Assembly: GCA_013138735.1 (NCBI GenBank)
Contig: WTCE01000099.1
Span: 1 to 48,650, forward strand
Direction of reading: 5' to 3'
Source: Crocinitomix sp.
GTDB taxonomy: Bacteria > Bacteroidota > Bacteroidia > Flavobacteriales_D > Crocinitomicaceae
Length of the DNA stretch: 48,650 bases
How positions within the stretch are numbered: the stretch's first letter is position 1; the number at the start of each line of letters is the position of its first letter. A model generated the notes under the pieces. The model was not told where the DNA came from. It saw nothing but the letters and a program-made list of their open reading frames with translations, and made no database searches. This document shows positions 1,877 to 38,737 of the stretch, piece after piece. The position numbers and the translations under genes were made by a program.

Positions 1877-3274
1877 TTATCCTCCGACCTTAATTGCAGT
1901 GGTTGTTTTGGTGTCAAATTCATCCAATAAAACAAGTTGGCTATTTTCTAAGTTAATAACCGTTACTATTGCATATTTAATTTCTCTTTGATAGACATAA
2001 TCAATTCCGTTCATTTTATAATCGGCAGGGAAAGTTCCAAAACTTCTATAGTTTTCTCTTTTCTCAAGAATAGTTTCGGTATAATTGGGATACGACCAAT
2101 CCGCAAAATATGAACTGTTTTCTTGGATATGAGCTATTTTTAAATTTTGATCTAAAGTGATCACATAGCCTTTTCCGTAGCCGTTTTTCTTCCCTGGTTT
2201 TTTAGGTGCAAACCCTCTTACAATAAGCTGTAAATTATTATTAATCGGATCACTTACTACCTCATAAAGTTTAAAGCCTCTGTGTTCGTCTCTAACACAA
2301 TCGTTCCCTGTCATTTTTAAGAATTCTTCGACTAGATTACCTGAACTTGCCCCAAATGTTTCTATTCTCACATCTTTTTGAATTTTTTTACCAAAAAACC
2401 GTGTAGTTTCCGCTAATTTATCTTGCACATAAATATTATATTTTTCCGTATCAAACTTATATGGAAATAAAGAAGTAACCGAGCTATTTAATCGATATCG
2501 ACCTTCATAATCCTTTTTCTCTCCTAATTTCACTTCGTTCGCAACATTAATAATAATTGATTGTCGGTATTCATTCACCGCATTTTCCCATTTTTTGGTT
2601 GGCTTCCCATCTTTATCCACCATATAGTAAGTTTTAAAAACGAGTTCATCTTTACTTCTACGATCAAAACCCCAAGTTGAATTAAAATCGGTTCCTTCGA
2701 TAAAAGTTGGTAAAACATTACTTGTATCCAGAATGTCTAAATCTTGATTTAAGACGATAATGGGTTGAAAAGCAACAAATTTATTGCCATACGGGGTAAA
2801 TACACCTTTTGTCCCAACTCCAAAAACAAATACTTTATCGTCTATGGTTTCAATATTCGAAACGGCTCTAAAGGGAATGATTTCATTTAAATCTCGTGTA
2901 GTATGAAGTCCCGTTTCATACGAAAACTGATGCAGTCTATTGATACAATTATCATTGCTGAATGCTGTGCCATATTGCGCCAAATAAATATAATCATCTT
3001 GAGGTGAACAATAAAAATAATTTTCATTCCCAACAGATTTTACTTGCTCTAATTTCACACGCCAAATTAGATCCATATTATTTGAATAGAGAGAAATTCC
3101 ATCTTTATCAACACGGACAATTTGTTCATCTTTTGTCTTCACATATTGCACATAATTCTGTATCGCATTTGATATTGGCTTCTGCAGGTCTGTTTTTAGT
3201 TCTTTCTCAAATATCACGTTTTGAGCGCTGAGATAAAAAGGAATGCAAAGGAATAGGGTGATTATGAATTTCAT
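1877..3274 (-). CDS. Secreted protein of unknown function
   Basis: A 465-residue protein with a clean Sec signal peptide (MKFIITLFLCIPFYLSAQ, cleavage after residue 18) and no lipobox, so periplasmic or surface. The body is rich in short beta-like segments alternating with polar loops (for example SLYSNNMDLIWRVKLEQV and ETIDDKVFVFGVGTKGV), which suggests a beta-propeller-like or all-beta fold, but I see no diagnostic repeat. There is no T9SS sorting tail. I do not recognise a family. It is monocistronic, with the glycine-rich T9SS gene upstream separated by a terminator at 3357-3387. Confidence 0.7.
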   Translation of the reverse strand: MKFIITLFLCIPFYLSAQNVIFEKELKTDLQKPISNAIQNYVQYVKTKDEQIVRVDKDGISLYSNNMDLIWRVKLEQVKSVGNENYFYCSPQDDYIYLAQYGTAFSNDNCINRLHQFSYETGLHTTRDLNEIIPFRAVSNIETIDDKVFVFGVGTKGVFTPYGNKFVAFQPIIVLNQDLDILDTSNVLPTFIEGTDFNSTWGFDRRSKDELVFKTYYMVDKDGKPTKKWENAVNEYRQSIIINVANEVKLGEKKDYEGRYRLNSSVTSLFPYKFDTEKYNIYVQDKLAETTRFFGKKIQKDVRIETFGASSGNLVEEFLKMTGNDCVRDEHRGFKLYEVVSDPINNNLQLIVRGFAPKKPGKKNGYGKGYVITLDQNLKIAHIQENSSYFADWSYPNYTETILEKRENYRSFGTFPADYKMNGIDYVYQREIKYAIVTVINLENSQLVLLDEFDTKTTTAIKVGG

Positions 3275-7278: not shown

Positions 7279-8113
7279 AAGGTATAAATTTTGGTTAATA
7301 AATTAGTTGAAGCAATTGTAGAGATAAATTTTTATAATTCCAAATTTCAATTTAGATTTAGGATGACACGTTAACTCCCACATTTTTAGTTCAATAATTC
7401 CGGCTTTCAGTAAGTCGTATTCGAGTTGTTTTTCATCATCTCGTTTAGGGGAACTGCCTGTACAAACCGCACACCTGAATCGATTAAATAAAGAGATTTT
7501 ATTACGGAATATTAATTATTTGATCAAAAAAAACAATGTCCAAAGAGGTATTAGGATCATGCTCTTTTTAAAGGGCATCTAAGTTACATTTATAGTTCGC
7601 TGAATAGATTTTTAAAAGCAGGTGTTAATTATTTGACAACAATAACATTAACGCCTTGATTATCAATATTTTTGAACTATTTTTAAATTTCATAAAAAAA
7701 AAACAAATCACTAATTGACTGTTAAAAATGCAACATTATATCCATTCTTGATCGAATCTCCGCTTGCGTGATCATTGTTAAAATTGCTTTTGCAATCACA
7801 TTTTAAATGATTTTTACTAATAAAACATCTATTATAAAGTGTATAAAATGTTCATTTCCAATAGCACGAAAACACATACCAAATAAAGCCCCGTATTAGT
7901 TGTGCAGGGCCTTGCTGACTTTGCTCAGTAGTGCAGTTATTGCGTGGAGTGAGGTTGATGAAATTTGGTTTGAAAAATGTAAAATGGTGCGCGGAATATT
8001 CGTGTAGGAGTGTAGATTGGGGTTTGTTGCGATTTGAGTTAGCGCAGTAGCACATGTTTTCACTGAAATTCTATGAAGGTGAAGCTACTGCGAAGCTGAG
8101 GGCATCACTAGAG
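7279..8113. other. Long intergenic region downstream of the eCIS operon
   Basis: No supported gene. A 67-codon minus-strand ORF at 7852-8055 overlaps repeat-like sequence and has no family-like features. The region carries members of a short repeat built on CAGTAGTGCAGTTATTGCG (7925-7943), and a 9-bp perfect inverted repeat, CGCAGTAGC at 8043-8051 with GCTACTGCG at 8084-8092. The inverted repeat lies just past the last eCIS gene and could act as a transcription end or RNA-stabilising hairpin. Confidence 0.5.
8043..8092. repeat. 9-bp inverted repeat at the distal end of the eCIS operon
   Basis: CGCAGTAGC (8043-8051) and GCTACTGCG (8084-8092) are perfectly complementary, separated by 32 bp, and lie 22 bp past the stop of the last eCIS gene. 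There is no T-run on the minus strand right after it, so it is not a classical terminator. Confidence 0.45.
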
Positions 8114-9526: not shown

Positions 9527-10801
9527 TTATAATTGTATTTTTTTATTTAAATACTTTAAAGGATCCACTTTTATTCCATTTTTCCTTATCTCAAAATGTA
9601 AATGATATCCTCCATTAAGTCCTTTTACGAATCCAGTATTTCCCACTAATCCTAAAACTAGTCCTTTTGATATGTGTTGTCCTATTTTCACTCCGATTGT
9701 ATTCTTCTTCATATGAGCATATAATGAACTTATACCAAAACCATGGTCAATTTCAACAGACTCTCCATATCCTCCTCGAATCCCTGACCTAACAATTCGT
9801 CCAGATGCAACTGATAGTATTACAAATCCTTTGTTACCAGCTATATCTAAGCCCCCATGAGGAGTTTTTTTAAGCCCCCTTAAATCATTGAAAGTTGAAC
9901 TAACAGAGCCATTTACAGGAGATATGAAGTTTTGTACAAAAGGAAACCCCCACGTTTCAGCCAAAATAACTTTATTGTAATAGAAATTATGAAAACTATC
10001 AGTTTCAGACATAATTTCATAAGCTCTTCTGGCTTGTTTAGGTGTAAGGTATTTTACAAATGAGTGATTTAGTCCAGTTGAAAGTGGATCAAACTCATTT
10101 TTAAATTGTTCATATGCTTTTTTTCCATGATCAGGAGGCATTGGTTTGGTTTGAGCCATTTCTTTTTTAGCGGATTTCCCATGCTGCACAGTATGCACCA
10201 ACTCATGCGCCAATAAATGCTTGCCTTGAGAAGACGAAGGATTATACTTCCCCGAATTAAAATAAACATGATTACCATGTGCAAAAGCTTGTGCGCCTAA
10301 TTCTTGGCTCATTTGTATGGCATTGTTATCCGTGTGAATTTTAACATTGCTCAAATTAGCTCCAATGCCATTTTCCATAAAGGAACGGGTCGTTTTGGGC
10401 AGGGGACTTCCACCACTTTTGCTACTGTTGAGTTGGGATTCTAAGGATAAACTAGGCGTGCTATTTTCGTTCTCACCAGTAGCTCGTTTTTGTACCCACG
10501 GAATAATACTTGTAGATAACCGTTTTTGTTGAATTTTCTCGTCTTTCGCTAAAGCTACAGATGACACGTCTTCCTGTTCACATCCATTGCATTTCCTTTG
10601 TATTGTTCCTCGCTCTGGCATGAGCATGACTTTGTCTGCAATACTATCAGCTTCTTGCTCATATTTATCATTGGGCTGGCCTATGGTGAGTTTCGGTTGA
10701 ATGCCTAAATTTTTAGCAGCAATTGATAAACCAGTTTTGGAATTTTGGCTTCCTTTGGTTTTTGATTTATTTTCAGTTTGAGATTTTTTAGTTACTGGCA
10801 T
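9527..10801 (-). CDS. DUF4157 - M23 peptidase fusion, putative eCIS effector
   Basis: A 424-residue protein in two parts. Residues of about 30-210 form the DUF4157 region: QPNDKYEQEADSIADKV, a CxxC (CNGC), VKIHTD, and a zinc-metalloprotease-like HELVH at 199-203. DUF4157 is strongly associated with eCIS loci. The C-terminal 140 residues are an M23 (LytM/lysostaphin) endopeptidase, which cleaves peptidoglycan cross-bridges: ligands H315 and D319 in HGGLD, SLYAHM, and H400/H402 in HLHFE are all present, so it should be active. An ATG 14 codons upstream exists, but it lies within a dispersed repeat (10832-10855), so I choose 10801. Likely cargo: a cell-wall hydrolase delivered by the injection particle, or one that helps release it from the producer cell. 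Confidence 0.85.
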   Translation of the reverse strand: MPVTKKSQTENKSKTKGSQNSKTGLSIAAKNLGIQPKLTIGQPNDKYEQEADSIADKVMLMPERGTIQRKCNGCEQEDVSSVALAKDEKIQQKRLSTSIIPWVQKRATGENENSTPSLSLESQLNSSKSGGSPLPKTTRSFMENGIGANLSNVKIHTDNNAIQMSQELGAQAFAHGNHVYFNSGKYNPSSSQGKHLLAHELVHTVQHGKSAKKEMAQTKPMPPDHGKKAYEQFKNEFDPLSTGLNHSFVKYLTPKQARRAYEIMSETDSFHNFYYNKVILAETWGFPFVQNFISPVNGSVSSTFNDLRGLKKTPHGGLDIAGNKGFVILSVASGRIVRSGIRGGYGESVEIDHGFGISSLYAHMKKNTIGVKIGQHISKGLVLGLVGNTGFVKGLNGGYHLHFEIRKNGIKVDPLKYLNKKIQL

Positions 10802-10831
10802 GGTGTTGATTTTTATTTCTATGGGTAGTCC

Positions 10832-10855
10832 GCAGGATTGCAAATCCAGCGAAGC
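10832..10855. repeat. Hairpin-forming dispersed repeat, copy 2
   Basis: GCAGGATTGCAAATCCAGCG followed by AAGC. It matches 331-354 in 21 of 24 positions. Two of the three differences are a compensatory A-T for G-C change in the hairpin stem (GGATT-GCA-AATCC versus GGGTT-GCA-AACCC). Confidence 0.55.
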
Positions 10856-14106: not shown

Positions 14107-16738
14107 AATTACTTTGGTTAATTGGTTGCGTAATTGTCACTACCTTGATATGGTCTGTCACTTTTAATTTTTGAAACTCTGTGCCATCATTTTTTAATTT
14201 ATACACGCCTACTTTCAATCCATCTAAAGGTTTTCCAGTATTGATCATAAATTCCGTACCAATGGTATTCGTGCTTCTTTGTTTACAACGCCATTTTCCA
14301 TCTCTTACTTCTAAAGTCATTTCTATTATTTTTTCAGAAAGATCAACAACTGGGGTTGATAAAATCGTTTGCAAAAACCCGTCATCTACGCTGGAGATCA
14401 TCATTTTTTGATTGATTTGGGAATAATGAAATAACCAATAGTTTTGAGAATCCTGCCAGTCGAAGACCAAACCAGACTCTGAAGTATTCTTGTTTCCCAT
14501 CTTAAATTTTAAACTGAGTTTTTCGACTGAGTTTTCGGGGTCATCTCCAGAAGCTTTAACTGCAATAGTCTCGGAGTCATCAATTAAAAGTGGACTATGA
14601 ATGGGGTTTTCAATGGCATATAACCGATTTAATTCCTGAATTAATGGATTTAAAGCATCTGCATAAGCAGTTGGTATAAAATCAGGTTTTGCATTCTCCG
14701 TTAACCAGTTTTCATACCCTATTTCAAAACCTCTCATTTGATCATGACTTAACCAATGGATATGAACCTGTAAATGGGCTGGTGATTCCAGATGTACGGC
14801 TTTCTCAAAATAATCTCTGAATCCATTTTGATTAAATTGACTGGGCCAAGCAGGGATAACTATACTTATAATTTGAGAATAAGGATCAGTTTTCCACGGA
14901 CTAAAATAATGTTGTCCAACAGGAAATATGCTAAGAAATTTATCCGCATTACTTTTTGGACGAAGCAAAAGATGTTCAATGATGTGGAATCCTTTAGCAG
15001 TATTGCCATTCCGATTACCCAATTTGGCGCTATTGGCATCAATTCCAATTAAACCACAAACCCGTTTTTTTAGACCCGAAACATTATCCGTTTCCAATTG
15101 TGATTTAGTATAATTAAAGCCTTGCCCCCTTTCGCGGCTAGTTGAAGGAAAATTCTGCAAAAAGGCATTTTTATTATTGATTTCGTCTGTAATATTTGCC
15201 TCATTTAATAATCCAGTAGACAATAAAGGATAATCGCTAACCTGTTCGGCAAAACGCCCTAGTTTATGATCCAGAAATCGAACTGTTCTTTGTCCTTCAT
15301 CCATGATGTCTGATTTGATTACTTGATCTGGATTGACATATAAATGACTGGTGTTAATGGCTTCCACTTTTAAAGAAAAATAGCTTTGCTGATCGGTATA
15401 ATGGTTTGACAATAATGCGCCGGCATGACCCAGTTGCGCTTGATAATTAGCCATTAATTGTTCAAATAATAATAAATAGGCTTTTAACTGTTTCGCTTGA
15501 GCTCGCCTTATTGGGGTGGCCGTGCTCGGCAAACCATCTGAGCCAATTCCGTAGTTTTGTGGAAAGTCTTCCTGAACTGAAAAATAAGCATGTAGGTTCC
15601 GATAGCGTCCTGCTGGAATAGCTAAATCGCTTTGTTGCAAATCAGGATATTGCTGATTGCGGTCATTTTCTTTTTTGAGTTCATATAGGTGGATGACTTC
15701 ATCCTGATTGGCTTGGTCAGCTATTCCATTTTTCACAAATATTACGTCACACTTTTCAGGCGCAAGTTTGGGACTATAATTCAAGTCGGGGTTCAATTTC
15801 AGGCACCAACGTTGTCCTGTTCTGAAAGCCGTCCCTTCAGGGTTCGTCGCGGCATGGAAATTTCGCACGGCTTTCACGCCTTTGACATCCATTATAATTT
15901 GAATTATATCGGATGTATGGATTGCGGCACGGTGTTTTGGCAATTCTTCAGTGAGTAAAAAGCCATGCTTGAGGGCAGGCCCATTAAAAATTTCATGAAT
16001 GGGCATTTCTTTTTCTAATAAATCATTTAAGCCATGAAATTTTGGCCGTGGCAATAAAAAACGATCGATTTGAAAATAAATCTCGGCTAGGACATCAGTC
16101 ATTGACGCATTAGTTTCCAATTCAATCTCAGTAGCCAATGATACGGCCTCTTTTTTAACCGTTGCTAAAGGCAAAAAATCTTCACCCAAATTTCGGTGTG
16201 CCATTAATAAGCCCATGACTTCCGCTTCTAATATTAGTTTTGCTTCTGAATCAATGTTTATGCTCTCATCAAAATCTAACAACACTTGATATAAGCCTTT
16301 CAATTGAATTGTATCCTTGCTATCTGCAATAACTTGATCTGAATAATGACTGAGCTTTGTTTGGCTTGTGTTTTTATAGATTGGTGCTGATTGTTTAGCT
16401 GTCACAATCCAAACATTTCTAATCCCCGGCAAGTCCAAAATTAATTTACGATAATCTGAAATGCTGGTAGGATGAGCGGGTAGTATTTCCCTTGCCGTAA
16501 ATAATTCATGTGCTTTGTCCTGACTGTCTGCAGATAAGGTTAATAAATCCTTAATATCGAACGAAGTCCGGTAGTTTAAATCGGCAAGCGCATAAGATAA
16601 TATCTCCAATATAGTCACCCCTGGATCATGGACATTATGATCTGTCCAAGATTCACCAGCGAATTCATGGAGGTGTTGGATACCTTCTTTGACGAGGGTA
16701 GTTGGGGATTGGATGGGAGATGTTTCAGATAGTAGCAT
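14087..16738 (-). CDS. eCIS baseplate wedge protein (Pvc12/Afp12-like)
   Basis: An 883-residue protein starting MLLSETSPIQSPTTLVKEGI and continuing GESWTDHNVHDPGVTILEILSY, the 'W-TDHN-HDPGVT-LE' motif of the J-like baseplate component Pvc12/Afp12. Such proteins form the wedge ring that surrounds the hub and anchors fibres. The C-terminal 150 residues look like a lectin-like beta-sandwich (GLVFDWQDSQNYWLFHYSQ), which may be involved in fibre or target contact. Its start overlaps the end of the nucleotidyltransferase gene by 14 bp, so the two are translated as part of one operon. Length is close to that of relatives as I know them. Confidence 0.9.
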   Translation of the reverse strand: MLLSETSPIQSPTTLVKEGIQHLHEFAGESWTDHNVHDPGVTILEILSYALADLNYRTSFDIKDLLTLSADSQDKAHELFTAREILPAHPTSISDYRKLILDLPGIRNVWIVTAKQSAPIYKNTSQTKLSHYSDQVIADSKDTIQLKGLYQVLLDFDESINIDSEAKLILEAEVMGLLMAHRNLGEDFLPLATVKKEAVSLATEIELETNASMTDVLAEIYFQIDRFLLPRPKFHGLNDLLEKEMPIHEIFNGPALKHGFLLTEELPKHRAAIHTSDIIQIIMDVKGVKAVRNFHAATNPEGTAFRTGQRWCLKLNPDLNYSPKLAPEKCDVIFVKNGIADQANQDEVIHLYELKKENDRNQQYPDLQQSDLAIPAGRYRNLHAYFSVQEDFPQNYGIGSDGLPSTATPIRRAQAKQLKAYLLLFEQLMANYQAQLGHAGALLSNHYTDQQSYFSLKVEAINTSHLYVNPDQVIKSDIMDEGQRTVRFLDHKLGRFAEQVSDYPLLSTGLLNEANITDEINNKNAFLQNFPSTSRERGQGFNYTKSQLETDNVSGLKKRVCGLIGIDANSAKLGNRNGNTAKGFHIIEHLLLRPKSNADKFLSIFPVGQHYFSPWKTDPYSQIISIVIPAWPSQFNQNGFRDYFEKAVHLESPAHLQVHIHWLSHDQMRGFEIGYENWLTENAKPDFIPTAYADALNPLIQELNRLYAIENPIHSPLLIDDSETIAVKASGDDPENSVEKLSLKFKMGNKNTSESGLVFDWQDSQNYWLFHYSQINQKMMISSVDDGFLQTILSTPVVDLSEKIIEMTLEVRDGKWRCKQRSTNTIGTEFMINTGKPLDGLKVGVYKLKNDGTEFQKLKVTDHIKVVTITQPINQSNYDNSIT

Positions 16739-17555
16739 TATAATTATTTTTACTGATTATTTGACAAATAATGAACTTCTCGATTTTATTAATCGCCGCA
16801 ATGAGTATCTCACAGTTAGTTTCTTTATTTATGAAGAAGTCTAATATTTTTTTCATTTTAGATGCCTCTTCTGGAAAGGTTTCGGCAAACAGAGTATAGC
16901 AGCAATAAAGATTACGTGTATACTTTTTTTGAATAGGAATGGTTAATTCCATTCCAGAGCGTAATAATTTCTTTGCAATCCAATTATATATGCTACTGAC
17001 CCCTTTTTTATTTTGAAATTCTTTGGGCAGACTCATTATTTTGCCTAAATCATTAATTGCGATATCAATATTTGACTCTAGAGATTTAATTGTAAAACAG
17101 ACTGAGTTATCCGCTTTATATTTAGGTAAACTTTCTGCCAAACTAGTGCCATAGAGACAAATTGAGCTTACTTTGATACTGAACGCTGTGCTAGGAAAAA
17201 TTTCATCTCTGTTTTGGAGGTAGATATCAACTTTTTGAAAGGGCAGATTTTTTTTATTTACAACATTATTTAGGAAAGGCCTTAAAGAATTGATGTCTAT
17301 TTGTGAATTAGGGAGTCCAATTATTATTATATCGATATCAGAGTACTGAGGGTATATAATTCCTCTTGCGATTGAACCTCTTAAATATATGCTATGGATA
17401 TTTATATTTGAGCAAAATGATAAAATGCTTTCTTGAATTATATCTATACAACTTCTTAAGTTAATTTGTATCACATCAATGCTAAGGTTATTTATAAAAT
17501 ACCCCTCAACATCCTGTAGATAGTAGTATTTGTTATAGTTATATTGAGTATTCAT
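16725..17555 (-). CDS. Nucleotidyltransferase (Pol beta/MNT-type) inside the eCIS operon
   Basis: A 276-residue protein with an NTP_transf_2 (Pol beta superfamily) active site: G60-S61 in YLRGSIARG, D73 and D75 in SDIDI, and a third acidic residue D110 in KVDIY. All catalytic carboxylates are present. Such enzymes move an NMP to hydroxyls of small molecules (aminoglycoside adenylyltransferase type) or to proteins (MntA/Fic-like AMPylation). The C-terminal half is helical, like the KNTase-type domain. Its stop overlaps the Pvc12 start by 14 bp and it follows the dioxygenase by 26 bp. Very rich in Asn, Ile and Tyr, unlike the neighbouring baseplate proteins, suggesting recent acquisition. It is not a known eCIS core component; a role in modifying the fibre is inference. 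Confidence 0.8.
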   Translation of the reverse strand: MNTQYNYNKYYYLQDVEGYFINNLSIDVIQINLRSCIDIIQESILSFCSNINIHSIYLRGSIARGIIYPQYSDIDIIIIGLPNSQIDINSLRPFLNNVVNKKNLPFQKVDIYLQNRDEIFPSTAFSIKVSSICLYGTSLAESLPKYKADNSVCFTIKSLESNIDIAINDLGKIMSLPKEFQNKKGVSSIYNWIAKKLLRSGMELTIPIQKKYTRNLYCCYTLFAETFPEEASKMKKILDFFINKETNCEILIAAINKIEKFIICQIISKNNYNATI

Positions 17556-17581
17556 TAACGTTTTCTTAAAACAATTATGTA

Positions 17582-18142
17582 CTAATGTGCCATTTCTAAA
17601 AATGTAGATACTGTATATTTAGGATTCGATATTGGTGGATTCCCCCTATGTTTAAAAGTCCAAAAAGGAGGGAATAAGGCGATCTTTCCTTGTGCAGGTT
17701 TAATTTTGCAATTTGGGCCTTCAAATTCTGTCTCACCACCAACATTAACCGTATTAAGATACCAGATAGCGACTAACATCCGTTTACTTCTTGAAATTTG
17801 AGAAGCGTCAATATGCCAATCAAATTTAGATTCACCGTCACTGTCGTATTTCTTAATTCTGAATTGCGTTGGGATTAAAGGGATGTTTATCATTTCGTTT
17901 TTGTCTTGGTACTTTTTCAAGTAAATTATTAAAGACTTTTGAAGATTAAGTAATAGGTTATACGAGACATCATTGTCAGGCACTAGGACTAATTCTCTAA
18001 CCTTTTTCTTTTTAAGGTTTATTGTATTCTGTTGAATCATTCCCCAAAAATGATTATCATGGTTATTTTCAAAGAAGTTTATTAATTCTTTGCATAATTT
18101 TTCTTCAATAGCCTGATTGTATGATTTTATATATCTGTTCAT
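17582..18142 (-). CDS. 2-oxoglutarate/Fe(II)-dependent dioxygenase (prolyl 4-hydroxylase-like)
   Basis: A 186-residue enzyme of the P4Hc fold. The facial triad is present: H110 and D112 in WHIDA and H165 in FKHRG, with K175 ten residues later as the 2-oxoglutarate ligand. The GGETEFEG and KPAQGKIALFPPFW segments are typical of the jelly roll core. Members hydroxylate prolines or other residues of proteins. The gene starts 2 bp after the stop of the collar-domain fibre gene and is followed by the nucleotidyltransferase, all in the eCIS operon. Proximity suggests that the fibre or another structural protein is the substrate; that is inference. It is not part of the standard eCIS gene set. Confidence 0.86.
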   Translation of the reverse strand: MNRYIKSYNQAIEEKLCKELINFFENNHDNHFWGMIQQNTINLKKKKVRELVLVPDNDVSYNLLLNLQKSLIIYLKKYQDKNEMINIPLIPTQFRIKKYDSDGESKFDWHIDASQISRSKRMLVAIWYLNTVNVGGETEFEGPNCKIKPAQGKIALFPPFWTFKHRGNPPISNPKYTVSTFLEMAH

Positions 18143-18144
18143 AA

Positions 18145-19182
18145 TTAGGTTGTTTTCATTATATAAATCAGAACAAAAAATGGAGTCATATTATCATGTG
18201 ATATATCCCCGCCAGTACTATCAGTTTTTGCGCCCTCTTTATACCTTAATGTTGTACTAATTTTAGATGGTGTAACTGATGTTATTGCAGCTGAAGTTGA
18301 CCCAGTACTTGCATGGTTAGCCGTATCCTCATCTCCATCATAAACATCATTATAATATGTGGTTAGCCCGCTAGAGGATGTAGAGATTGACTTAACAATT
18401 TCTTGATTATCTAGCCAACCACCCCCATTATCAATTGAACCGATATTATTTTCTGATAAAGTATGTTTATGAGCAGGTATTTGATCTGTTGTTAATGTAA
18501 TTGATTCTTTACCACCAATATCTCCATTAAGTCTTTTTGTTAAGTTAATTCCTTTCCCTTCTCCTAAAACAAACCTACCTCTTAAGTCTGGCGTTCCATT
18601 CTTGCCATTACACATTGCCCAGCCTAAAGGAATATTATTAGTGTTTCCGGACCACATAACGACAACACCCATTGGTACCAAAGAATTAGGCATTTCGGTT
18701 AGATTATTCCAACTTACTTTACCTTCAAATTTATCTGCTGTAATTTCCCCAGTTATCTTTGCATTGCCATCAACATGCAAATCTTCTTCAGGCTGCTTCG
18801 TACCAATACCCACTCTTCCAGTAGCATCTAACAACAAAGCGGCATCAGAATTGTCATTGTTTTGGATTAAAAAACCTGGATTGTCCTCTTCTGGGTTGAT
18901 ACTAATATGCCATTCTTCATCACCACCTGTATCTTCGAATCCAATTAATTTATCACCATTGGCTCTGTTCCTAATACTTAAAGGGCTTTCAGGGTCAACT
19001 GAACCAATTCCCAAAAAACGGGCAGGATTATCTTCGTCACCTTCAGCTTTAATAAACAATTGGTCATCTGTTTTATTAAGAGATGAATCCACTAAGTCGG
19101 CAAAATCACCTTCTGTGGGCATTTTATCTGACTCAAAATATTCCTTCAATGTTACCCTTCCTTTTCCTATTTTATCACTCAT
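18145..19182 (-). CDS. eCIS tail fibre/tip protein with phage collar domain
   Basis: A 345-residue fibre-like protein. The N-terminal part reads FESDKMPTEGDFADLVDSSL, then a repetitive beta region (ESPLSIRNRANGDKLIGFED, 'GRVGIGTKQPEEDLHVDGNAKITG') resembling the chaperone-free stalk repeats in phage fibres. The C-terminal half has 'PMGVVVMWSGNTNNIPLGWAMCNG' plus 'TPDLRGRFVLGEG' and 'ITLTTDQIPAHKH', the phage Tail Collar (microcystin-dependent protein type) domain. It takes the place of Pvc13-type fibres between Pvc11 and Pvc12. Likely mediates target-cell binding. Transcribed 7 bp after the Pvc11-like gene. Confidence 0.87.
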   Translation of the reverse strand: MSDKIGKGRVTLKEYFESDKMPTEGDFADLVDSSLNKTDDQLFIKAEGDEDNPARFLGIGSVDPESPLSIRNRANGDKLIGFEDTGGDEEWHISINPEEDNPGFLIQNNDNSDAALLLDATGRVGIGTKQPEEDLHVDGNAKITGEITADKFEGKVSWNNLTEMPNSLVPMGVVVMWSGNTNNIPLGWAMCNGKNGTPDLRGRFVLGEGKGINLTKRLNGDIGGKESITLTTDQIPAHKHTLSENNIGSIDNGGGWLDNQEIVKSISTSSSGLTTYYNDVYDGDEDTANHASTGSTSAAITSVTPSKISTTLRYKEGAKTDSTGGDISHDNMTPFFVLIYIMKTT

Positions 19183-19189
19183 AATGGTA

Positions 19190-22100
19190 TTATTTAATAG
19201 TTATAAAAGTTTCTTCAATTATCATATGCCCAATTCCATCCGCACACATGGCAGCTTCATCATCAATGACTGTAATCTTATGACTTGAGGCAGATGTTAG
19301 AATGGAGATTGGACTGATAGCTTCAGCTTCTTCTACATTGATGCGGACATTGCCATCTGCATCCATATGGCTCATTTTAAAAAAAGTCACATAGTCCACA
19401 TAAGGTCGTTCTTCGGCAAAATTGAGCAGAGATGACTTATAGATTCGTCCTCCTAAATTGATTTCTTTCCCTTCGGAATAAGCCCAGGGAGACAAAAATG
19501 CCTTTAGCTCAGCTTGTAATTGATTTTCGTAAAAGCCATTGTTAAAACCAGCCTTAAACTTGACCAAAAATTGAGTTTGGATAGTTTCAAATATGGGATT
19601 TCTGACTTCAATTTGAACATGTGGTGGAGCTAGGTTTTGCAAAAATGTTTTGACCTGTTCTTGCAAACCCAAAGACGCCAAGGGTTTTAATTGATTGACC
19701 TCAGGGTTATTTCGTAAATCGGGAATAATAATGACTAGCACATGGCCAGCAACATTTCCCTTTTCCCAAGATGCATGGTTATAGCATTTGGCTTTATATA
19801 AGCCAGGGAATTGACCAAGCGCCAGACGTTCATAATCCCATGTCGTCAAAGCGCGTTGCTTATGGCGCAGGCGTTCACTTATTCTTCTGTAAAAAGCATG
19901 ATCAGTTTCAGCTCCCTTGCCGTGAATTGATACATAAGGCTGCTTAATGCTTTTAATGGCCATATCCTTAACTAGCATTTTTTGAATGCTATTGGGGGCT
20001 AAAGGTTCATTGTTGAGTTGTGTACTTTGCATATCAATGACTTCCACAAGTGTTGCTCCTTGCGCCTGGAGATCAGACAATAAACAAGTGCCATTACTGC
20101 TTGTTGCCGCAGAAGCTCGCAACCAATATTTGCCTTTTTCCAAGGTCTGATTCTGCATATTGATTTGAGCAGGAATTGAAAACGTGATAATGCCAGAGCT
20201 GTTAAATTGATCGGTACCATCTCTTAAAATGGCGGGGCCTTCCAAAGGAAACCATTCATCATTGGCCAGATAGGTCCAATTAATTTCAGGTTTATGACTA
20301 TTGGGATTAGCTGAGCCTTCTATAATTTGAAATAAAATGGATAATTCACAAGGAGGTTGCAGGTTTTCAATGCCAATGTAAAGATTGCCTTCTCCCTCAT
20401 AATTTGGAAAAAGATATGGGGTGTCATTTAAGACCGTATGTGGACTCCAGCCAAAAGGATGAATATGAAATAGATGGTTTTGATCATCAATAACATCTAT
20501 TTCCGTTCTGGCTGTATAATCCAATGAGATGGACTGCAAAGTTGGTGTATAAGGCTGATTAGGCAGCTCAACATCAGAATTAAGAGCTGTAATAGCCTTA
20601 GTATAAAGATTTGGATATGCTTTATGTCCAAAATCTGGACTTTGTAAGGTCAGTTTGATAAATCCTCTGACAGAATCAATCCCATAAGGTTCGAGTTCTT
20701 TAAAATCGGGTGCTTCATCTGATTCGATATTACCATGAATCAGCTCAATCGTTTTTTGGCTATTCGCATCAGGCTCAAATAGCGCTGAAGGTTGATTTAA
20801 ATCGATCCAATTTTTATTTTTCAGGATGCCTAAATCTACTTTGAAGTCTGCATTATTTCTAGTTGCGTTAGTATAGTTGACATAATGTTCCGATAGATCA
20901 TTACCTGGTAAATCATACCAGTTTAAATGTAGCTTAACACTTTCTAATTCCTTTTGAAAAACTTCACCACTACCGATATAAAAATTGGCACCAACAGCTG
21001 CTTGTTGACCAAACGGTTGAAAGGGTTTATTTGAATTCAATTTGGCAAAATCATTTTGCAAAATCAACGTCTTGAGATCTTGAACTGCCACAATGACTTC
21101 AGTAGTCTGTAAGTCCAAATCCTTTAGAATTGAATAAGGATACACTCCGGCAGGATTTAAAAGGATTTGCACCATTGGCCATTCCGTTTTGAATTGACCT
21201 CCTAAATTTTTATTCTCGTATGGAACTATAGGCTCGATCGTTTTGCCGAGTTTTACTTCAATATTGACGATTAAATTTGATTGCTCATCCTCATCTCTGC
21301 GTATTGTTGCCGTATGAGGTAGCGCTTCGATCCATTCATTTTTACCACTAAATTTCAGGATAAAAGGCGGGATTAATTCATTTTCAGGTGAATTTTCATC
21401 AGCGTCTAGCTTTGGAAAATCATTGGGCAAATGGTTCAACCAATAGTCATCACCATTAAAAACACCCTTTGCAATAATTCTGATTGATCTTTCACCTTCG
21501 CGCATTAGTAAAACGGGTGCAGCAATGGCAAATCCAATATCGCCAATTGGTAAGGAATCATTGCCTAAAGCAGAAATAGTATCCTTTCCTTGATGGGCAG
21601 CGGCAAATATACCTTGTACATAATCCAATTGACGAAAAGTCTCAACGTCTTGCCCATTTACAGTTTTTATTGATCCAACTTCCAATGTCTTTTTTTGAAG
21701 AAACACAGTTTTTCTATCTGTAATTTCAGCCTGACTTAATTCCGTGTCATGCATCAATTTATAAAGCATATCTTTACCGTCAATAGCTTTACCCGCTTTA
21801 AAAAGGGCACCCTCTTTTAAGAAATGCGTCTGCACGTTTTTAGCCAATTCCATAATCAAATGAACCTGATTCGGTTTTGCTTTTTCTTTATTAAATCGCA
21901 GGACATCTTCATAGTAAAAATCGAGATGCCTTTTGGTAAAATTATTGAGGTTATCCTGTGATAATTTGAAGAGTTCTAAAAAAGCCCGTATTAGTGCATA
22001 CTGAGGAGAATCTTGATCAATTTCACTTTGGTCTGCCGGAAAAAAATCGGCCCAGGTGCCGTCTTCTTGATTTTCAAGATTAAAATATTTGAGATTTTTC

Positions 22101-31083: not shown

Positions 31084-31713
31084 TTAGCTGTTTTTATCAT
31101 ACTCTTCTTTTGTAACTTCAACAATTTCAGCAAAGTCTTCCATATTTCGAATAGAATTGTTTTGCCAAGTGCCAACCACCTCGTATTCAGTTCCTGAAAC
31201 TAATTTTACTCTTTTAAAGTTTACTGCAACTGTTCTTGATTTAGCTATATATTCCCCTTTTGAATCCAGCGCTTTGTAATAAATGTATAAGCTTTGTTCA
31301 ACTGAGCCATATTCTCCCATCATATCTTCATTGATAGTGATTAAAAACTTAATATTTAAATTACCTTCTGAAGCTTTGTCGACTTCCACTTTATTAATTG
31401 TGTATTTTGTGTCCGCTAAAGCTTGGAATGGTAATTCCTTATTTAATGGATTTGCCGCTAAATACTCTTCAACTGCTTGTTTCTTTTCCTCTTTAAGCAG
31501 TTTTTTCTCTTTCTCCAATTTAAAGGCTTCAGCAAAATCAGTACATTCGTCAATTTCCTGTTCCTTTTCATCCAATTGATTCGCATAATTATTTTCGATT
31601 GAAGGAAATTCACCCAAAAATTCATTATCCGTTGTGGACGAACCACCACTACAACCCATCAAAAAAATGACCGTAAAAATCGATAATCCTGAAATAAATT
31701 TTAACTTTTGCAT
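31084..31713 (-). CDS. Lipoprotein with central coiled coil
   Basis: A 209-residue lipoprotein from the ATG at 31713 (MQKLKFISGL ... FLMGCSGG, lipobox Cys at about residue 21). An ATG 12 codons upstream gives an N-terminus too polar for a signal peptide. After a Ser/Thr-rich linker there is a charged heptad-like stretch (DEKEQEIDECTDFAEAFKLE then KEKKLLKEEKKQAVEEYL), and then a beta-rich C-terminus (TINKVEVDKASEGNLNIKFL). No family recognised. Unrelated in sequence to the eCIS genes. Confidence 0.72.
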   Translation of the reverse strand: MQKLKFISGLSIFTVIFLMGCSGGSSTTDNEFLGEFPSIENNYANQLDEKEQEIDECTDFAEAFKLEKEKKLLKEEKKQAVEEYLAANPLNKELPFQALADTKYTINKVEVDKASEGNLNIKFLITINEDMMGEYGSVEQSLYIYYKALDSKGEYIAKSRTVAVNFKRVKLVSGTEYEVVGTWQNNSIRNMEDFAEIVEVTKEEYDKNS

Positions 31714-32255
31714 AATAACTATTTTAGTTTTACTACTTGCCCTACTCATTTGGCTTTTCGGTGCCGCCCCGTTTTTTTTTTAGTGGTCTCTGGACTCCGC
31801 AATACTAAGTTACACAGGATACATTCATTGAAGGATGTCTGTCATCAAGCCTTACTATGATATTCCTCAATATTAAAACGCATAAATGCATAGCATCATC
31901 ACTAAATGACTCACATTCAAGTGGGAACATTTTTTCAACTAAAAAAAGGTCCTTTAGAATTATGTTCTTTTCTGTAAATTGATTATAAAAATGTAGTACA
32001 ACAGATTAGATATTTCAATCATTTTAGTTGCTAAACGGCCCTTTCCATCTTCTGGTATGACAGCCCTCTGCATTTAGACCGAGTTAACCATAATTCTGTT
32101 TTTTCTAGAATCAAATGGCCCAAATTAAGGGGTATTACTAGCCGAAAATTGCTCAAAAATCATTATCTTTAACTAGTAAGTAAGGACAATTAGATATGGC
32201 CTGTGTCTTGAACGATTCAAGCCGGGTTTATTCTAAATAAGTAAATTTTTGAATT
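31714..32255. other. Intergenic region upstream of the FG-GAP genes
   Basis: No gene supported in 540 bp. It contains a T-run after GCCGCCCCG (31763-31780) and the promoter region of the plus-strand FG-GAP gene. No clear TAnnTTTG box was found directly upstream of the ATG at 32256. Confidence 0.5.
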
Positions 32256-36112: not shown

Positions 36113-38575
36113 CTATAACTTAAATAAAACCCTCACCATAAAATTTCTTCCGGCTTGTGGGTAGTAAAAATTCTCTACTGTTCTTTCTCCACCAGAAATA
36201 TATCCCCAAGTGTAGCCATTGTTTTCATACAACTCATTAAATAAATTGTTTACCATTAAACCAAACGTTATTTCTTTACACAGGACGTCCTTAATTGTGT
36301 ATTTCATTTGAAGGTTAAATGTAGTGTATGCATTCAATTTACGTGTTTGTGTAGACGTGTTGTCTAAAAATTGATCGCCAACATGTTTCCCCATAAAACT
36401 AATACTCATGTTTTTTATTGGCTCATATTTTAAACCTGCAGCAGCTATAATATTTGGAGAAAATGCTAAATCAGAATTGCTGTGTGCAATTGTGTCTTGA
36501 CCTCCAATATCGTAATTGGTAACATACTCATTGAATTTCTTAATTTTATTACTACTAAGTGTTACGTTTCCTGTAATACTTAAATTTTTAAGTATTCGAT
36601 AGCCCGCTTCAATCTCAATTCCTGCTCGGTAACTTTTGTCTACGTTTGTTCTAGTAAAATCTCCAACATCATTAATCTGTCCTGTTAACACTAATTGGTT
36701 ATTATAATGCATATAATATCCATTTGCATTTACCATCAATTTTTGACCTTTATAACGGTAGCCTAATTCAAAATTTAATAAATTTTCTACGTCAGGTCTG
36801 TTTTCTGGTGTACTTTCTCTAAAATCTCTTCTCACTGGCTCACGATTAGCAACTGCAGCAGAAAAATACGCGTTATTACGCGAATTAAAGTCGTACATAA
36901 ATCCAGCTTTTGGGTTAATAAAATCAAAGGCTAAATTTTGGTCAACTGCTGTAATTGTTCCACTCACATCATCAATTCCTAAAAATGAATAGTCGATATG
37001 TCTGTATTGAACGTCACCAAACAATGTTAATTTACCCAATTTGTACGTTCCTTTTAAATAAGCGTGCGCTTCATTTTTCGTGGCATCATTGTCATAATAG
37101 CGGTCTCTAATGTCACTATCTGAAGCAAATTCTGCCCAAATAACCTCACCATAATGCCCGCCAATATATTGATTTGCGCCTCCACCAAAAACGATATTAA
37201 GTGGCCCTTTGTCATACGACAATGAAAATACACCACCATAAAAATGGTTATCTAGCCATCTTCTTCTAATTAAGTCGGTTGTTGTAATGGTATCGTCAGC
37301 AAAATTAAGTGGCGCAAAGCCATAATCACTAAAATCTTCACCGGCTTTATATTGCTCAAAATATCCTTTCCCTCTTGTATAATGCAGAGCACTTGTTAAT
37401 TTCAAGTTTCTCGTAAACTGATGGTTAAAGTGCAATTGATAGTGATCTTGTTGGTAATTATCCACTTCATTTTCATAAGTATAGAAATTATAAGTTCTAC
37501 CTGATGTCAACAAATTGTCTCTATCGCTTCCAAAAATATAATTGCGATCTGCATAGGCATTAATTGCAGCCTCATCTCCCCCTCCATTGATAAGAGATTC
37601 TGGTGTACCGTACCAAGCTTGGTATGTTTTCTCTTTCCCACTAAATACAGTAGCCCTCAATAATGATTTTTCACCTACCCAAGCACCAGAAACATAGTAT
37701 GATTTTAGATCTGATTCTGCTCTATCAATATAGCCACCTGAACTAACACGCGATAAACGGGTATCAATAGTAAACTTGTCATTAATTAAACCTGTTCCTG
37801 CTTTGACTGTGTTTTTCCAGGTGTTAAAAGAACCGTAAGAGTTGTCTAACACTCCGTACGCTTTTCTATTGATATTATCCGTTTTAATATTAATACTTGC
37901 ACCAAATGCAGACGCACCGTTTGTTGATGTACCTACTCCACGTTGAACTTGAATATTTTCTACTGATGACGCTAAGTCAGGCATGTTTACCCAATACACA
38001 CTATGCGATTCAGAATCATTAACAGGAATTCCATTAATAGTCACATTAGTCCTACTTGGGTCAACTCCTCTAATTCTAATCCCAGTATAACCAACTCCCG
38101 CGCCTGCGTCAGATGTTACCACGGTAGACGGCATTGAGTTTAGTAGATAAGGCAAATCCTGACCATAATTACTGTCCTCAATTGCCTCTTTGTTTATTTC
38201 TGAATAGGTTGTTGGTGTTTTTACGTCTGCACGAATTGCTGAGACAGTTATCGCCTCCATCAGCCTTGAATCTTCTGCTAAACTTATGGATAATTCCTTA
38301 TCACTATTGTCAATTTGTATTATTTCACTTTGCGATAGAAAACCAGCCATATAAAAGTTAAGGTCATATTCTCCTGGCTTCAATTTAGTAAACACAAACT
38401 CTCCTTCAAGGTTTGTAAATGTCTTAAAAAAGGTTTCTTGAATTTCCACTTTAACTCCAGGAATAGGATTTCCATCATCTCCTTTTACAATTCCTTTGAT
38501 GTTGTGCTGTGCAAATGTTACCATTGGCATGAACATAAGCAGGCCAAAGATTTTAGACAAAATTCTTGTTTTCAT
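36113..38575 (-). CDS. TonB-dependent outer membrane receptor, TPP-riboswitch controlled
   Basis: An 820-residue outer membrane receptor: signal peptide (MKTRILSKIFGLLMFMPMVTF), CarboxypepD-regulatory-like domain (about 22-110, 'IKGIVKGDDGNPIPGVKVEI'), plug (about 120-245, with 'IRIRGVDPSRTNVTINGIPVND' and 'VENIQVQRGVGTSTNGASAF'), and a beta-barrel ending in RNFMVRVLFKL, with the terminal aromatic-rich strand expected. Because a TPP riboswitch lies just upstream on the same strand, the likely ligand is thiamine or a thiamine precursor, imported with energy from TonB-ExbBD. The neighbouring PnuC-type permease fits inner membrane transport of the same vitamin. Confidence 0.9.
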   Translation of the reverse strand: MKTRILSKIFGLLMFMPMVTFAQHNIKGIVKGDDGNPIPGVKVEIQETFFKTFTNLEGEFVFTKLKPGEYDLNFYMAGFLSQSEIIQIDNSDKELSISLAEDSRLMEAITVSAIRADVKTPTTYSEINKEAIEDSNYGQDLPYLLNSMPSTVVTSDAGAGVGYTGIRIRGVDPSRTNVTINGIPVNDSESHSVYWVNMPDLASSVENIQVQRGVGTSTNGASAFGASINIKTDNINRKAYGVLDNSYGSFNTWKNTVKAGTGLINDKFTIDTRLSRVSSGGYIDRAESDLKSYYVSGAWVGEKSLLRATVFSGKEKTYQAWYGTPESLINGGGDEAAINAYADRNYIFGSDRDNLLTSGRTYNFYTYENEVDNYQQDHYQLHFNHQFTRNLKLTSALHYTRGKGYFEQYKAGEDFSDYGFAPLNFADDTITTTDLIRRRWLDNHFYGGVFSLSYDKGPLNIVFGGGANQYIGGHYGEVIWAEFASDSDIRDRYYDNDATKNEAHAYLKGTYKLGKLTLFGDVQYRHIDYSFLGIDDVSGTITAVDQNLAFDFINPKAGFMYDFNSRNNAYFSAAVANREPVRRDFRESTPENRPDVENLLNFELGYRYKGQKLMVNANGYYMHYNNQLVLTGQINDVGDFTRTNVDKSYRAGIEIEAGYRILKNLSITGNVTLSSNKIKKFNEYVTNYDIGGQDTIAHSNSDLAFSPNIIAAAGLKYEPIKNMSISFMGKHVGDQFLDNTSTQTRKLNAYTTFNLQMKYTIKDVLCKEITFGLMVNNLFNELYENNGYTWGYISGGERTVENFYYPQAGRNFMVRVLFKL

Positions 38576-38626: not shown

Positions 38627-38640
38627 AACTAGTTTTTAAA

Positions 38641-38723
38641 TCACTTCCCTTCGCAGGCATTATCCTGAGCAGGTTAAATGGGTATAATCTCAGCCGCTAA
38701 TTAAAGCAGCACCCCTTAGAGAT
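38641..38723 (-). promoter_or_regulatory. TPP (thiamine pyrophosphate) riboswitch
   Basis: On the minus strand the conserved core reads GGGGTGCTGC, GGCTGAGATTATACCC, AACCTGCTCAGGATAATGCC, and GCGAAGGGAAGTGA. These are the landmarks of the THI element (P2/J3-2 CTGAGA, P4/P5 CCTGA-C-GGATAATGCC, and GCGNAGGGA). It lies 66 bp upstream of the TonB-dependent receptor ATG. TPP binding is expected to reduce receptor expression. Confidence 0.95.
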
Positions 38724-38737
38724 GGAACAAAATTACA

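Follow-up and report, generated by a model that had tools for sequence, protein, structure and literature searches.

A rare fibre tip, a 2OG oxygenase and a nucleotidyltransferase form a candidate fibre-modification cassette in an eCIS operon

A collar-type fibre with a rare tip, a 2OG/Fe(II) oxygenase (2OG) and a Pol-beta-type nucleotidyltransferase (NT) are encoded side by side in an eCIS operon of Crocinitomix sp., and a diverged copy of the same trio occurs in a second bacterium. We propose that they form a fibre-tip-specific modification module in the eCIS fibre slot, consisting of a target-binding fibre and two dedicated enzymes, and put the probability of this reading at roughly one half. 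The stretch of DNA analyzed, here called the window, comprises 48,650 nucleotides of contig WTCE01000099.1; the features discussed are collected in Table 1.

Table 1. Cassette genes, flanking baseplate genes and fibre segments (positions in the window).
Feature	Size	Position	Strand	Basis or remark
Pvc12-like baseplate protein	883 aa	14087-16738	(-)	downstream neighbour, overlaps NT
NT, Pol-beta-type nucleotidyltransferase	276 aa	16725-17555	(-)	PF01909; GS...DxD...D also in L004
2OG/Fe(II) oxygenase, prolyl-hydroxylase fold	186 aa	17582-18142	(-)	
Fibre, collar-domain tail fibre	345 aa	18145-19182	(-)	ORF, Pfam, PHROG and PDB matches
Tip insert of fibre, residues 247-319	73 residues	18226-18444	(-)	common to L004 enzyme-linked fibre
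Collar motif region of fibre, residues 164-206		18565-18693	(-)	
Pvc11-like baseplate protein (Baseplate_J)	1018 aa	19190-22246	(-)	upstream neighbour of cassette

Within the operon the order is Pvc11-like, fibre, 2OG, NT, Pvc12-like. That the three cassette genes lie between the two baseplate genes with intact active sites had been claimed in the original prediction and is confirmed by the ORFs, the Pfam matches and a check of the individual residues; the ORF coordinates likewise reproduce the predicted spacings of 2 bp (fibre to 2OG) and 26 bp (2OG to NT) and the 14-bp overlap between NT and the Pvc12-like gene. The latter protein has no Pfam match and owes its name to its position and to homologues that follow pvc11 in 74 other sites. 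Inclusion of both enzymes in the operon is supported. A consensus scan of positions 16500-19400 found no terminator-like sites and 17 promoter-like sites, compared with 13.5 in shuffled sequence (sd 3.6), which is close to chance and carries little weight either way, and the two Rfam matches both fall outside the cassette. The GC content is 0.296 for NT, 0.321 for 2OG, and 0.314 and 0.317 for two further operon genes; given that these other genes are also low in GC, and that NT is present in both cassettes, the case for its later capture looks weak.

The fibre itself bears both marks of an eCIS tail fibre: it follows the Pvc11/Baseplate_J gene, and its N-terminal half is held in common with other eCIS fibres. 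It matches the Pfam Collar model at 19.8 bits, below the curated cut-off of 24, and phrog_1800 ("tail collar fiber protein") at 2e-21; among its PDB sequence matches are proteins of tail fibres (9qgo, 7.6e-09) and, at a weak 0.0092, the T4 short tail fibre (1ocy). In the reading proposed here, the fibre joins an eCIS-type N-terminal half to a probable phage-type collar that bears a special tip.

Elsewhere in the phylum, 74 further eCIS sites were surveyed: the slot between pvc11 and pvc12 is without a gene in 65 and holds one fibre in nine, which include the second eCIS of the Crocinitomix sp. genome, with a fibre of the S74 type. The earlier statement that fibres are normally encoded there was too general, this being a minority state in the phylum. 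These nine fibres resemble the window fibre in position and by phmmer (E<=1e-3), but they have other tips (S74 in four, no Pfam match in five) and no accompanying enzymes. Neither 2OG nor NT was found at any of the 74 sites, which bears out the view that they are not standard eCIS genes. Two of the surveyed sites (L082 and L095) contain only part of pvc11, a 280-base overlap in a third (L091) is probably a misplaced start, and one genome (G480), whose match begins 445 bases from a contig end, was left out. Profile searches for 2OG were negative in 394 other genomes of the phylum, 398 others of the order and 244 others of the family to which the second bacterium belongs, as were searches for NT in the 394 phylum genomes (by profile) and in 148 other relatives (by single sequence); for some genomes, only a fraction of the candidates was scored in these searches (8 of 20 in one case), and a pattern scan of genome contigs reaches close relatives only, so that distant cassettes may be missed by either. 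One further candidate from the genome scan (L005) proved to be a chance match, a single peptide inside another protein.

In total, two cassettes were found. The second is in a Cyclobacteriaceae MAG (L004/L125), where the genes for the fibre (fib5), 2OG and NT follow one another downstream of the eCIS structural genes, pvc11 and four other fibres, with 2OG and NT overlapping by one base. The L004 contig ends before pvc12, and the empty search of the MAG for Pvc12 is uninformative. Between the two cassettes, 2OG is 59% and NT 32% identical, and the checked active-site residues, H110, D112, H165 and K175 of 2OG and G60, S61, D73, D75 and D110 of NT, are intact in the window and identical in the L004 copies. 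Because this second cassette has diverged with its active sites kept, the trio is neither unique to one genome nor disrupted in its relative, two of the outcomes that would have spoken against the prediction. Sequence comparison shows that the trio has remained linked in both bacteria, in copies that are well diverged.

Comparison with the four sibling fibres in L004 locates what the two enzyme-linked fibres have in common. Over residues 1-70 the window fibre is 50% identical to fib5 and 47-56% identical to the siblings, whereas over residues 216-310 it is 59% identical to fib5 and only 7-19% to the siblings; of the 46 residues that the window fibre shares with fib5 but with no sibling, 39 fall within 216-345. 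The tip inserts are identical at 46 of 73 positions (63%). Among ORFs of at least 60 aa in sets of 145 and 89 loci, the insert matched only these two fibres at E<=10; that of the window fibre had no match in phages and no other copy in the Crocinitomix sp. genome, and the L004 counterpart had none in plasmids. On this comparison, it is the tip insert that the enzymes accompany, and neither the eCIS as such nor the part of the fibre that faces the baseplate. A well diverged version of the trio, rare tip included, is thus present in a second bacterium, and the enzymes therefore probably finish or alter the fibre, although genes moving as one block would give the same linkage without any joint function.

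The 2OG protein matches Pfam 2OG-FeII_Oxy_3 at 40.3 bits (cut-off 27; L004 copy 42.5). Its fold is a double-stranded beta-helix resembling solved prolyl hydroxylases, and the 50 nearest folds in a capped list are all peptide or protein prolyl hydroxylases, beyond which small-molecule oxygenases may also occur; identity is only 11-20% to the PBCV-1 viral collagen prolyl hydroxylase (5c5t), PHD2 (6yw3) and Pseudomonas P4H with EF-Tu (4iw3). H110, D112 and H165 make up the HxD...H iron site, and K175 is the basic residue for 2-oxoglutarate at +10 from the distal histidine, a P4H trait. We discarded as a cassette relative a Tistrella plasmid 2OG (31% identity), whose adjoining frames read as metabolic genes with no fibre among them. 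Over residues 98-182, both 2OG proteins match the PADLOC 2OG model that bears a CRISPR-associated label (6e-15 and 4e-16); we take this to reflect the general 2OG domain. In the proposed module, 2OG would hydroxylate residues of the fibre during or after folding, and this could alter how stable the receptor-contacting tip is or how it binds. No proline sets the enzyme-linked fibres or their tip apart, since those common to both fibres recur in some L004 siblings or in all four; this weakens simple prolyl hydroxylation, and the target may therefore be another residue or another protein.

Related 2OG genes are common in cyanophages. In S-PM2, Syn1 and S-CAM4, a gene annotated as short tail fibre (gp12; "putative" in S-CAM4) is directly followed by a 2OG-FeII_Oxy_3/phrog_61 oxygenase, and in Syn1 this fibre carries a Collar domain by Pfam. 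Unlike the window, these are phages rather than eCIS, with no NT among the annotated neighbours, and their oxygenases are 22-25% identical to the window 2OG and have HxE where it has HxD. The viral loci give no support to a general association of 2OG with collar fibres: 2OG was present in 5 of 80 collar loci (the best 80 of at least 555 confirmed matches, many with short flanks) and in none of nine S74-type loci, no real difference. It was also present in two of six viral loci from the tip/collar alignment (L133 and L134, both without the tip insert) and in one of three phage regions examined from the fibre side (S-TIP37). Among nine phage 2OG sites inspected, six lie no more than 5 kb from a gene annotated as fibre, tail or collar; this does not amount to a rate, eight of the nine having been picked for their differing positions. 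The abundance of related 2OG genes in cyanophages, the PHROG classification of the family as moron/auxiliary and the rarity with which 2OG adjoins viral collar fibres would all suit enzymes that simply moved with the fibre as passengers and do nothing for it. We regard this as distinctly improbable: despite deep divergence, neither reading frame has been lost and every active-site residue checked is conserved, and the order of the trio after pvc11 is the same in both cassettes. That the enzymes are a payload injected by the particle is harder still to credit. Effectors are carried in eCIS operons and both enzymes are small, but in the window they lie in a stretch bounded by baseplate genes, and neither matches Pfam eCIS_core, in contrast to the M23 protein encoded at 9527-10843.

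NT scores 22.1 bits against Pfam NTP_transf_2 (cut-off 21; L004 copy 29.2), and an AlphaFold2 model from an alignment of two sequences is unusable at a pLDDT of 44.9. Distant relatives occur in ten plasmid records at 20.7-28.6% identity, and searches of phages and of viral contigs gave no match; the four plasmid regions examined have unrelated surroundings, one of them adjoining an amino-acid-adenylation (peptide-synthetase-type) gene. The two NTs match defence models (PDC-S09 and others) weakly, at 0.0005-0.009. The GS...DxD core is common to NT and to MntA/HepT-type MNT antitoxins, but NT is longer and neighbours 2OG and the Pvc12-like gene, with no HEPN gene, and we rejected an identification as MntA (NCBIfam NF047752, 14.1 bits against a cut-off of 60). 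For NT, a role in modifying the fibre is guesswork, as is the form of such a second step, in which it might add a nucleotide or use an NTP to modify a partner of the fibre. The original prediction is supported in part. The enzymes co-occur with a particular fibre tip, whereas the fibre as substrate, and hydroxylation followed by nucleotidylation, are hypothetical; no proline is particular to the tip, and the plasmid relatives of NT come from unrelated contexts. A tip matured in two such steps, with NT nucleotidylating the new hydroxyl or a nearby side chain, and with the nucleotide or hydroxyl setting target recognition or activating the particle, seems to us quite unlikely.

Possible, if doubtful, is a division of labour in which the fibre is hydroxylated by 2OG, perhaps as in the phages, while NT has some other task, such as the nucleotidylation of a different protein of the operon or the control of assembly. 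It would fit the phage relatives of 2OG beside short tail fibre genes, which NT lacks, and the faster divergence of NT, but NT directly follows 2OG in both cassettes. We think it unlikely that the enzymes instead protect the producer by modifying the receptor on its surface, or a surface precursor, in such a way that the particles it makes do not bind it: enzymes tied to a binding tip are what a self-protection pair would look like, and the L004 NT has a single short, weak plasmid match annotated as an aminoglycoside adenylyltransferase (E 3e-3, 22% covered), but the 50 folds listed as nearest to 2OG are peptide or protein prolyl hydroxylases, and the cassette itself adds no glycan- or lipid-type gene as a third.

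The cells that eCIS particles attack are determined by their fibres. If the modification module is real, target recognition could depend on post-translational chemistry beyond the fibre sequence, a fibre produced in the absence of its partner enzymes could lack activity, and some phage 2OG oxygenases adjoining tail fibre genes would acquire a testable role. Our literature search found no published description of a fibre-2OG-NT cassette in eCIS. That eCIS fibres can carry a phage collar domain is known from Pvc13 and other eBAP1 fibres, for which, unlike the window cassette, the available portion of the source describes no associated modifying enzymes (PMC12923769). The AlgoCIS fibre Alg19 of Algoriphagus also differs from the window fibre, having 1443 residues with shoulder and Ig-rich domains and, in the available portion of its description, no modifying enzymes; it is a trimeric eCIS fibre on which binding to bacterial cells depends (PMC13314943).

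The window's eCIS operon, on the minus strand, places three genes between its Pvc11-like and Pvc12-like genes: a fibre, a 2OG/Fe(II) oxygenase (2OG) and a Pol-beta-type nucleotidyltransferase (NT). Judged by the remaining genes of the window, the bacterium probably belongs to the Bacteroidota. The original prediction had these genes at the coordinates tabulated below, separated by 2 and 26 bp, with a 14 bp overlap into the Pvc12-like gene and with intact active-site residues, all of which we confirmed. Ten proteins of the operon were scanned against Pfam; the putative sheath, tube, LysM, VgrG-like, PAAR and Pvc9-like genes upstream were named by translation and gene order. The eCIS_core/M23 protein, near one end of the operon, is possibly a peptidoglycan-acting payload. 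The table also lists two Rfam matches elsewhere in the window.

Features of the eCIS operon and two Rfam matches in the window
Feature	Position	Strand	Assignment or remark
Fibre	18145-19182	-	eCIS operon gene
2OG oxygenase	17582-18142	-	eCIS operon gene
NT	16725-17555	-	eCIS operon gene
Pvc11-like		-	Baseplate_J (Pfam)
Pvc12-like		-	no Pfam match
Tape measure		-	CIS_TMP, 7e-97 (Pfam)
AAA ATPase			window operon (Pfam scan)
eCIS_core/M23 protein	9527-10843		both domains in one protein (Pfam)
DUF805 RNA	31735-31805	-	Rfam; overlaps start of ORF 31084-31749
TPP riboswitch	38630-38726	-	Rfam; upstream of ORF 36113-38575
ORF	36113-38575		translation resembles a TonB-dependent receptor

Of 395 genomes of the phylum searched with the Pvc12-like protein, 73 hold a match, that of the window included. 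With G480 omitted, 74 other sites were surveyed (71 other genomes, second sites in two, and the second eCIS of the window's own genome), all 74 of which have Pvc11-like and Pvc12-like frames, some cut at contig ends. At 65 of them no ORF of at least 60 aa lies between the two baseplate genes, and the remaining nine have a single intervening gene, a fibre linked to the window fibre by phmmer; neither enzyme was found in this slot, the region surveyed, at any of the 74. Four of these nine fibres carry Peptidase_S74, and five have no Pfam match. One of the S74-tipped fibres belongs to the own genome's second eCIS (G000:C29:42954-58454), which has no enzymes in the slot and is a natural internal control.

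The enzymes themselves were searched for in partly overlapping genome samples: the 2OG profile (E<=1e-6) had no match in 394 other genomes of the phylum, 398 of the order or 244 of the family to which the second cassette described below belongs, and the NT had none in the 394 phylum genomes (profile) or in 148 relatives (single sequence). A 2OG peptide-pattern scan of 84,980 species, one genome per species and reaching close relatives only, yielded two confirmed stretches; only L004, from a Cyclobacteriaceae MAG, is a true relative. The cassette recurs in a second bacterium and is not unique to the genome of the window. The whole L004 contig (L125) can be read as an eCIS operon as far as Pvc11, beyond which come two fibres, an accessory gene of 263 aa, another three fibres, the 2OG and the NT; after the NT begins one more gene, which looks like the accessory one. 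The 2OGs are 59% and the NTs 32% identical between window and L004, and all catalytic residues checked are identical. The five collar-type fibres (L004:294-5996) lie in one operon and have similar N-terminal halves and different tips; the accessory gene (2322-3113) matches phrog_10358, and its look-alike starts at 7355, at the contig end.

Residues 1-70 of the window fibre are similarly close to all five L004 fibres (47-56% identity), whereas over residues 216-310 the fibre adjoining the enzymes (fib5) is 59% identical and its four siblings are 7, 15, 17 and 19% identical. Of 46 window-fibre residues shared with fib5 and absent from the siblings, 39 fall within 216-345, and the tip insert (residues 247-319) is identical at 46 of 73 positions. 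In these alignments, the enzymes go with the fibre tip. Copies of the two fibres aside, a tip-insert profile hit no ORF (at least 60 aa) at E<=10 in 145 + 89 loci; at E up to 0.1, the window insert matched none of 50,697 phage records and the L004 insert none of 72,556 plasmid records. The own genome holds no second copy; a match there at 14 bits (E 0.57) was rejected as noise. The baseplate-side half of the fibre does not follow this pattern, so the part that can be transferred appears to comprise tip, 2OG and NT. Linkage by itself would also pair enzymes with tip, but its persistence across such divergence suggests a joint function.

At the sequence level, linkage, specificity for one tip and conservation of active-site residues are established, and the 2OG model has a prolyl-hydroxylase fold. 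We infer that the 2OG would hydroxylate the fibre; that the NT might nucleotidylate it is a guess. The simplest form of fibre hydroxylation is disfavoured, because every proline that the two enzyme-linked fibres share in the alignment is also found in one or more of the four siblings. These two fibres share tip-specific Lys, Asp, Asn and His residues, and the 2OG might instead act on another tip residue, a general collar proline or another protein.

We recognised no description of eCIS-fibre-linked 2OG or NT enzymes in open-licence PMC papers, with most subscription papers, preprints and supplements beyond reach. The available portion of a catalogue of receptor-binding domains in eCIS, published in 2026 (PMC12923769), describes loci with several fibres, tips of the S74 and C1q types and, in Pvc13, a collar domain, and contains no word starting with oxygenase, nucleotidyltransferase, hydroxyl or post-translational. 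The same four terms are absent from PMC8213781, as are oxygenase, nucleotidyltransferase, MNT and hydroxylase from PMC11297309. Among sources available in part, the AlgoCIS fibre mediates bacterial-cell binding (PMC13314943), viral use of prolyl 4-hydroxylase is termed cryptic (PMC9301287), and the accessible text of PMC10598087, PMC10436341 and PMC10665884 gave no 2OG enzyme-fibre link. As far as could be searched, the fibre-2OG-NT arrangement is new in eCIS; the enzyme module is real, rare and, as the fibre comparison indicates, tip-linked, and its chemistry is predicted.

The window 2OG belongs to phrog_61, a family common in cyanophages, and 447 phage records match it. The top match (B23) lies beside uvsX and away from fibres, and several further matches among those listed overlap "recombination protein"/UvsX features. 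The viral contig L014 (6263-10359) carries two or more 2OG genes on profile evidence, and further ones on visual inspection, adjoining three collar-type fibre frames on the opposite strand. Locus counts speak against a general collar fibre-2OG rule in viruses: a 2OG is present in 5 of 80 collar loci (the best 80 of 555) versus 0 of 9 S74 loci. In individual cyanophages, a related 2OG begins 8 (S-PM2), 8 (Syn1) or 1 (S-CAM4) bases past an annotated short tail fibre gene; the gene after the 2OG is a tail assembly chaperone in S-PM2 and Syn1 and a hypothetical one in S-CAM4. A query joining the end of gp12 from S-PM2 to the adjacent 2OG matches 112 phage records, S-PM2 included, and 7 of them span 80% or more of its length. 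S-TIP37, whose 2OG model ranks fourth among the viral fold matches, has a collar fibre, one intervening gene and then the 2OG.
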